From Brevibacillus laterosporus DSM 25 (lineage in GTDB: Bacteria > Bacillota > Bacilli > Brevibacillales > Brevibacillaceae), in the NCBI RefSeq assembly GCF_002706795.1, contig NZ_CP017705.1, positions 434,001 to 498,000 of the forward strand: a stretch of DNA of 64,000 nt, in the 5' to 3' direction. The notes beneath the pieces were generated by a model, which was not told the origin of the DNA, did no database searches, and saw only the letters and a program-made list of their open reading frames with translations. This document shows positions 29,560-39,583 of this stretch, in pieces. Both the position numbers and the translations under genes were made by a program. Position 1 is the stretch's first letter. Every line of letters begins with the position of its first letter.

Positions 29560-30622
<1,063 letters not shown>

Positions 30623-30748
30623 TTTCTCTTCACCTAACTTGTATACATATCCGTTGTCACACTTTTTTGTGAGACAGTAGTTTTCATACTACCATATAGG
30701 TAGGAAAAACGTAAAATTTCGCTACCGATAAAAAATATAAATCAGAAT

Positions 30749-30778
30749 GTATAAGTTACCAGTTTGCTGGTAAAAATG
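30749..30778 (+). promoter_or_regulatory. Possible SigF/SigG-type forespore promoter
   Basis: GTATA (30749-30753), 15-bp spacer, then GGTAAAAATG (30769-30778). This is close to the SigF pattern (GYWTA / GGNNANTNTR, one mismatch). It would start transcription near 30785, which gives a transcript of about 205 nt to the terminator at 30,990. The call rests on pattern reading only. Confidence 0.4.
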
Positions 30779-30784
30779 TGTTAC

Positions 30785-30990
30785 AAGCGATGCTATGGTG
30801 TCGCTGACAACCGCGGAGAAGACTTACGTTTCCCCATAAGCTCTTCCTCCGGTTTCTCCTCTCCCATAATTGAAGTCAGTTCAGTTGGCACCTCATGTAG
30901 ATAGGAGCATGATGGTGACAGGTTTCCCCGTGTGGAAACAGCTTGAATGACTGCCTCACTCTTCTTAAGAAGAAGTGGGGTATTTTTTTG
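30785..30990 (+). ncRNA. Putative CsfG-like forespore small RNA
   Basis: A region of about 205 nt with four hairpins and no convincing coding frame. Hairpin 1 is 30811-30852 (GGAGAAGACTTA pairs with TAAGCTCTTCCTCC with two bulges). Hairpin 2 is CACCTCATG / CATGATGGTG (30889-30917). Hairpin 3 is GTTTCC / GGAAAC (30922-30939). Hairpin 4 is the terminator. The motif GTTTCCCC occurs twice, in the loop of hairpin 1 and in hairpin 3. B. subtilis CsfG, a sporulation RNA of similar size conserved in spore formers, lies in the gap next to ylbH (rsmD), the same neighbour as here. Identity is inferred from position, size, structure and possible promoter. Confidence 0.55.
30953..30990 (+). terminator. 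Terminator of the putative CsfG RNA
   Basis: GCCTCACTCTTCTT / AAGAAGAAGTGGGG (one mismatch, one bulge) followed by TATTTTTTT. There is no gene upstream on this strand, which is what marks it as the end of a non-coding transcript. Confidence 0.8.
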
Positions 30991-31047
30991 TTCAAAACAG
31001 GGATATTAGTAAACGTCCCCATTCATAAAGAATATAAGGAGGCCAAC

Positions 31048-31191
31048 ATGGCTGCTAAAAATCCATCAGAACGTAAAATTAAAGCTTCTAAAGCTCAATC
31101 GCAAGCAGATCGCACTGGTGTTGGAATTGAACGTGCCCGTGATATGCAATCGCAAGCAGATCTTGCTGACGTCAAAAAGCATAACCAATAA
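31048..31191 (+). CDS. Small hydrophilic protein with SQAD repeats, unknown function
   Basis: 47 residues (MAAKNPSERKIKASKAQSQA and on). Two similar segments carry a SQAD motif (SQADRTGVGIERA and QSQADLADVKKHNQ). It is charged, with no cysteine, tryptophan or membrane segment. AAGGAGG lies 6 bases upstream of the ATG, so it is very likely translated. Size and composition recall minor small acid-soluble spore proteins, but I do not recognise a named family. It lies between the putative CsfG RNA and ku, and its downstream hairpin overlaps the ku ribosome-binding site. Confidence 0.75.
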   Translation: MAAKNPSERKIKASKAQSQADRTGVGIERARDMQSQADLADVKKHNQ

Positions 31192-31271: not shown

Positions 31272-32249
31272 ATGCACACCGTTTGGAAAGGTTCCATTAG
31301 TTTTGGTTTGGTCAACATCCCTGTGCGTATGTTTACAGCAACGGAAGATCGAGATATTCGGTTTCGTCAATTGCATAAGGAGTGCCACACGCCGATTCGG
31401 TACTCCAAGGTTTGCCCGACATGTGATCGTGAAGTAACTTCCGATGAAATCATAAAAGGATACGAATATGAAAAAGGTAATTTTGCTATGATTCAAGAGG
31501 AAGATTTAGACAAGATTGCCCCAGAAACAAAACGGGCTATTGAAATTGTCGATTTTGTTCAGTTGTCCGAAATCGACCCAATTTACTTTGATAAAAGCTA
31601 CTATCTCTCCCCACAGGAAACGGGAGAAAAAGCTTATTCCCTACTAAGAGTCGCTCTACAACAGACAGGTAAAATTGCAATCGCTAGAATCACTTTACGT
31701 AATAAAGAAAGCTTGGCCGTATTACGTATATACGAAAACGGTATGGTGTTAGAAACGATCTTTTATCCAGATGAGGTACGCTCTTTAGCTCAAGTACCAG
31801 CTCTCCCTCAAGCTGATGCCCCCTTAGTCGAGAGTGAGCTAGCTATGGCCATTCAATTAGTCGAAAGCATGTCTCGTCCCTTCCATCCTGAACATTACCA
31901 AGATACGTACCGACAACATTTACAAGAACTCATTCAGAAAAAGCTGGAAGGTAAAGAAGTGGCAACGGCTCCTTCCGCACCACGAGCCAATGTCATTGAT
32001 CTCATGCAGGCGTTAAAAGAAAGCTTGGCACAAGCTGAAACACCACCAGACTTGGCTACGAAAGAAACAAAAGAGAACCGTGACATAGTGGAACGTTATC
32101 CTGAACCACGCCCTATAGCTCAGAACCCCAAAAAGAAAGGTAGAGCATCTGCGACTACGGCTACAACAGAGCTGTCTCCTGATACCAGCTCAACTACCGT
32201 AACAAAAGCCCTACGACGCAAAAAAACACAAACACCGACTTCTAATTAA
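31272..32249 (+). CDS. ku: Ku protein for non-homologous end joining
   Basis: 325 residues from MHTVWKGSISFGLVNIPVRM. Bacterial Ku is a homodimer that encircles DNA ends and recruits LigD. The core beta-barrel carries the CPTCDREV zinc-like pair (C-X2-C), IEIVDFV and FDKSYYLSP motifs. The C-terminal tail (from about residue 240) is long, with many K, P, T and S, which in other Ku proteins helps bind DNA. The start was set by AAGGAGG 8 bases upstream. In B. subtilis ku and ligD are expressed in the forespore. Confidence 0.96.
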   Translation: MHTVWKGSISFGLVNIPVRMFTATEDRDIRFRQLHKECHTPIRYSKVCPTCDREVTSDEIIKGYEYEKGNFAMIQEEDLDKIAPETKRAIEIVDFVQLSEIDPIYFDKSYYLSPQETGEKAYSLLRVALQQTGKIAIARITLRNKESLAVLRIYENGMVLETIFYPDEVRSLAQVPALPQADAPLVESELAMAIQLVESMSRPFHPEHYQDTYRQHLQELIQKKLEGKEVATAPSAPRANVIDLMQALKESLAQAETPPDLATKETKENRDIVERYPEPRPIAQNPKKKGRASATTATTELSPDTSSTTVTKALRRKKTQTPTSN

Positions 32250-39488: not shown

Positions 39489-39583
39489 AAGGGTTTTTTG
39501 CTCGTTTAAAAAAAATATGAAAAGGTCATACTGGATATACAGTCATAATCGACAGGCATTTCTGATAAGGGAGGGCTGAAAGA

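Follow-up and report, generated by a model that had tools for sequence, protein, structure and literature searches.

The conserved, gene-free element beside rsmD in our window, by which we mean the whole 64,000-nucleotide stretch of Brevibacillus laterosporus DSM 25 DNA that was analysed, is almost certainly, judging from its sequence, an orthologue of CsfG. Taken as a whole, the data are probably best explained by a csfG gene that would encode a forespore RNA with a CU-rich strand for base-pairing in trans and with an added 3' domain. This domain of the Brevibacillaceae and a minimal form of the element outside the class Bacilli are the parts worth following beyond the known CsfG.

The CsfG sRNA of Bacillus subtilis reportedly goes back to Marchais et al. 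2011. For our comparison, a covariance model (R1) was built from 69 csfG loci outside the Brevibacillaceae, and it was built on the sense strand because published Northern blots of B. subtilis detect only the csfG strand, opposite to the one on which Rfam RF00516 ("ylbH leader") is drawn (PMC3574147). R1 matches the plus strand of the window at 30780-30870 (97.4 bits, E=2.8e-21), and RF00516, which models the same conserved element as a cis-regulatory leader of rsmD, matches there on the other strand, the 5' A-run of its match being the antisense of the csfG terminator T-run. The first-pass annotation had proposed a CsfG-like RNA and a search with such a model; the R1 match, the promoter type, the synteny with rsmD and the restriction to spore formers all support that proposal. 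The positions of the features are compiled in Table 1.

Table 1. Features of the csfG locus, in positions of the window.
Feature	Position	Strand	Basis
rsmD (ylbH), 16S rRNA m2G966 methyltransferase	30056..30622	-	TIGR00095
rsmD promoter-like site TTTAC-N-TAGTAT	30687..30716	-	38/38 family loci vs 1.3 expected
Sigma-F-type promoter, GTATA-N15-GGTAAAAAT	30749..30777	+	Full consensus fit; position kept in 37/38 loci
Predicted csfG RNA, ~205 nt	30785..30990	+	R1 97.4 bits; RF00516 63.6 bits on opposite strand; start inferred from promoter, end from terminator
5' hairpin	~30786..30805	+	Fold; present with altered sequence in other loci
Core hairpin, ~45-50 nt, apical loop CGTTTCCCCA	~30806..30856	+	Fold; within 72 invariant columns
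Rfam RF00516 match, antisense of csfG	30811..30991	-	63.6 bits, gathering hit
34-nt conserved CU-rich strand CCCCATAAGCTCTTCCTCCGGTTTCTCCTCTCCC	30832..30865	+	Recurs beside rsmD, also outside the class
Three-way-junction domain (P1, P2, P3), ~85 nt	30871..30955	+	R2 matches; covariation
Invariant GATAGGA loop of P2	30900..30906	+	Invariant in 30/30 distinct domain sequences
P3 hairpin with second GTTTCCCC (paired, not conserved)	30922..30939	+	Fold; covariation in relatives
Intrinsic terminator, G+C-rich stem then TA and T7	~30953..30989	+	Sequence, fold, family-conserved form
Small gene, 47 aa, without family, conserved 3' neighbour	31048..31191	+	35/38 family loci
ku (NHEJ)	31272..32249	+	TIGR02772; 36/38 family loci

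Like CsfG of B. subtilis, the element has the conserved core on the sense strand (core hairpin and CU-rich linker), C-rich unpaired stretches, rsmD (ylbH) as neighbour, an intrinsic terminator, a promoter of the sigma-F/sigma-G type (of sigma-F type here, by sequence) and an occurrence in spore formers. In two respects it departs from the B. subtilis RNA. The size had been given as the same, which is inexact, since about 205 nt here compare with a published peak of 136 nt (PMC3574147), and the difference is accounted for by the extra three-way-junction domain of 85 nt, which has GAUAGGA in one of its loops. The promoter of the Brevibacillaceae resembles the sigma-F type, and just 1 of the 38 family loci has a sigma-G-type match.

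No gene lies between 30749 and 30990, and the setting is as first described, with the RNA divergent from rsmD and a small gene and ku on its 3' side, rsmD and ku being recognized by their TIGRFAM models. At all 121 Bacilli loci rsmD adjoins csfG; it is divergent except in five loci (L045, L046, L047, L079 and L080), where it lies downstream on the same strand, so that csfG stays beside rsmD whatever the orientation of the latter. The 47-aa protein, conserved between csfG and ku, gave no Pfam or NCBIfam family above cut-off. A sigma-G-like -10 site of the CATACTA type follows the csfG terminator, and thus precedes the small gene and ku, in 22 of the 38 family loci (1.6 expected); at this place, between 30990 and 31048, the window has only GATATTA. 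It is possible that the small gene and ku constitute a forespore DNA-repair unit.

The SigF-like promoter and the strong terminator that had been called on either side of the element are both present. Full fits to the sigma-F consensus number 2 in the 64-kb window, against 0.6 expected from shuffling, and a promoter of this type is found at the same position in 37 of the 38 Brevibacillaceae loci (0.4 expected). The second full fit of the window, GTTTA-N15-GGTCATACT, is located at 39504 on the plus strand. Of the 83 csfG loci outside the family, 65 carry a promoter of sigma-F or sigma-G type, against 1.8 expected.

The link to sporulation, claimed at the outset as conservation among spore formers, holds across the class. 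RF00516 was detected in 38 of the 39 genomes of Brevibacillaceae and in 230 of 399 sampled genomes of Bacilli; the sporulation gene spoIVA is found in 267 of the same 399, including 229 of the 230 csfG-positive genomes (Fisher p 5e-69). Among the 38 genomes with spoIVA and no csfG hit, 25 belong to a single family (f3), in which the spoIVA scores are more distant and csfG is not detectable in the class search, an absence that reflects either loss or strong divergence.

The predicted fold of the RNA has a minimum free energy of -66.7 kcal/mol (z = -2.4 against shuffles) and contains the three hairpins that had been described, in the form of a 5' hairpin, the core hairpin and further stems. The core comprises 72 columns that are invariant across 33 distinct family sequences; the loop of its hairpin reads CGUUUCCCCA, and the CU-rich linker (30853-30865) overlaps the final pairs of the predicted core stem. 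In the predicted structures of the 121 Bacilli RNAs, the apical loop is little paired, with a mean probability of 0.16, compared with 0.36 for the linker. The motif GTTTCCCC was initially thought to be exposed twice, which is true of its first copy (30828-30835), conserved and located in the apical loop of the core hairpin. The second copy (30922-30929) forms the 5' arm of the P3 hairpin GTTTCC-CCGTGT-GGAAAC, whose arms covary in relatives (GCTCCC/GGGAG, GTTCCC/GGGAAC) while the sequence itself varies; it is therefore not an exposed repeat, and we rejected it as a functional one.

Outside the class, R1 gave matches of 36-48 bits in 7 of the 249 genomes of the phylum that were searched, and all 7 adjoin rsmD. 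The exact 34-nt pattern was found in at least 117 stretches of genome contigs, with an rsmD hit for 76 of the 80 listed; the records that carry it also include some named Thermoanaerobacterales, Syntrophomonadaceae and Dethiobacter, among others, and such names, where given to MAGs, may mislead. The out-of-class elements lack the 5' arm of the core hairpin and their 34-nt strand is predicted to be mostly unpaired, which reduces the minimal unit to this strand and a terminator. A sigma-G-type promoter precedes the strand by 38-51 nt in L190, L191, L192, L218, L248 and L258, and also in L260; other out-of-class loci show relaxed fits, and none was seen upstream of the strand in L188, L197, L240 and L268. 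Judged by eye, lookalikes of the alpha/beta-type small acid-soluble spore proteins are encoded near the short element in L188 and L191-L194. These forms allow a tentative history, to which we give somewhat less than even chances, in which CsfG predates the Bacilli as a 34-nt single-stranded element with a forespore promoter, located next to rsmD among spore formers of several classes and acting on one conserved partner; the Bacilli would then have added the hairpin, and the Brevibacillaceae the GAUAGGA-loop domain for a second partner.

As for the mode of action, csfG would yield a non-coding RNA of about 205 nt that, as we infer from the promoter, is transcribed in the forespore from the sigma-F site, divergently from rsmD, and ends at the intrinsic terminator. 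The CU-rich strand CCCCAUAAGCUCUUCCUCCGGUUUCUCCUCUCCC, half of it in the hairpin and half in the single-stranded linker, is most likely its functional part; this strand may base-pair in trans with purine-rich ribosome-binding sites in the forespore and lower their translation after the manner of the C-rich sRNAs RoxS and FsrA. The C-rich regions of CsfG have been likened to those of RoxS and FsrA (PMC8216469, PMC4409812), and according to the literature no target of CsfG is known (PMC8216469, PMC9147052). RoxS/RsaE and FsrA likewise possess C-rich single-stranded stretches (PMC4409812, PMC8216469), but they are other genes under other control (redox, iron). The most parsimonious proposal is that the exposed C-rich stretches pair with ribosome-binding sites, and a base-pairing mechanism has, in our analysis, about an even chance of being correct.

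For the pairing of the C-rich motif with ribosome-binding sites that the first-pass annotation suggested, complementary sites show no clear enrichment in the genome. Searching genome-wide with 14-mers and allowing up to 2 mismatches, we found 61 near-complements of the loop against 39 control sites, an excess that is partly due to one repeated element, and 45 of the linker against 46 control sites, which is no enrichment. A perfect 14-nt complement lies inside a coding frame (locus L129), and candidate matches at ribosome-binding sites are those of L175, L183, L134, L159 and L164; the search gave no convincing target. Tandem copies of GCAACCGGAGGAACAG were observed at G000:C1:2495512-2495806, in a repetitive gene or array.

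The conservation of the 34-nt strand exceeds what pairing with a changing set of mRNAs would require, and one conserved partner fits it as well or better. Accordingly, the CU-rich strand may act on a single invariant partner, either an Hfq-like or spore-specific protein or one conserved RNA, which it would titrate or steer in the forespore. The 34 nt are nearly unchanged in the Bacilli and in other classes where the surroundings vary, the out-of-class RNA is little more than this strand and a terminator, and in B. subtilis CsfG is recovered together with Hfq (PMC3574147). Against this, no partner is known, a 13-nt complement in 16S rRNA was tested and found not to be kept, and two adjacent positions within the strand vary freely; we consider this reading rather unlikely.

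In the Brevibacillaceae, this RNA has acquired a further structured 3' domain with a GAUAGGA loop ahead of its terminator. The domain, of about 85 nt between linker and terminator, was found in all Brevibacillaceae examined; P1 closes the junction, P2 ends in the GAUAGGA loop, and in the short P3 hairpin the 5' arm is rich in pyrimidines. Searched in the class sample, a model built for the domain (R2) matched strongly once per genome in all 36 genomes of the family, gave four weak matches elsewhere (28-31 bits) and had none at the 83 csfG loci outside the Brevibacillaceae; the domain is therefore a family-specific addition. On an alignment fitted to the structure, and hence biased towards it by construction, 18 of 23 pairs have changes on both sides, and the covariation score is 0.357, compared with 0.07-0.15 for slid controls and 0.19 for shuffles. 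RNAalifold predicted no pairs on the raw, unfitted MAFFT alignment of the domain; single-sequence folds agree for most members. The base pairs include 77 G-U and 26 A-C cells, which fits the plus strand as the RNA strand. No description of the domain was found in the literature compared, to which the original CsfG paper (Marchais et al. 2011) does not belong.

The likely role of the domain is either to bind another partner or to pair with the CU-rich strand of its own RNA. In the latter case it might be an intramolecular lid that, by pairing of the AGGAG of the loop with the CUCCU of the linker, keeps the RNA inactive until it is released by a signal or partner. The hairpin loop keeps GAUAGGA without exception, and the invariant linker contains a complement of AGGAG; however, only 5-6 pairs would form, little above chance for purine- and pyrimidine-rich strands, and three loops read AGGAA with the linker unchanged. 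We regard such a lid as improbable.

Regulation of 16S rRNA by CsfG as an antisense RNA, through pairing of CUUCCUCCGGUUU with AAACCGGAGGAAG, is highly improbable. The complement is exact over 13 nt in the rRNA operon used for the comparison, a plasmid-borne one of Bacillus and not the host's own, and none of 1000 shuffles reaches 13 nt. The match was, however, found by post hoc looking, its duplex energy is ordinary (22 of 100 shuffles are as good), and the variant CUUCGUCC, present in 28 of the 80 loci listed, shortens it to 9 nt, with the 16S rRNA of Paenibacillus keeping GGAGGAAG and offering no compensating change. Since the complementarity is not kept across lineages, 16S pairing is not supported, and this candidate was rejected.

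Still less credible is the reading of RF00516, in which the element is a riboswitch-like leader in the 5' UTR of the rsmD mRNA. The Rfam gathering hit does fall on the rsmD strand, but a promoter of the form TTTAC-N-TAnnnT, conserved on that strand at every family locus, lies between csfG and rsmD, and a message starting there would not contain the element. Promoter and terminator suit the opposite strand, as does the Northern evidence already cited (PMC3574147), rsmD is downstream on the csfG strand in the five loci mentioned above, and no such leader was found by dRNA-seq of FZB42 (PMC4634765); the conserved promoter and the published Northern led us to reject it. A short peptide has almost no probability and was likewise rejected: short open reading frames exist (by eye, ...AEKTYVSP* across the core in some families), but by eye no ribosome-binding site is seen, the frame or start is lost or a TAG stop intervenes in several families, and the nucleotides of the core do not vary, even in its loops.

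CsfG ranks with the best-conserved RNAs known from spore formers, and its element is still classed by Rfam, in RF00516, as a leader and on the wrong strand. From the minimal form found outside the class, the functional unit can be confined to about 34 nt, the variants show which positions matter, and the domain of the Brevibacillaceae represents a natural fusion to the CsfG RNA that can be removed for comparison.
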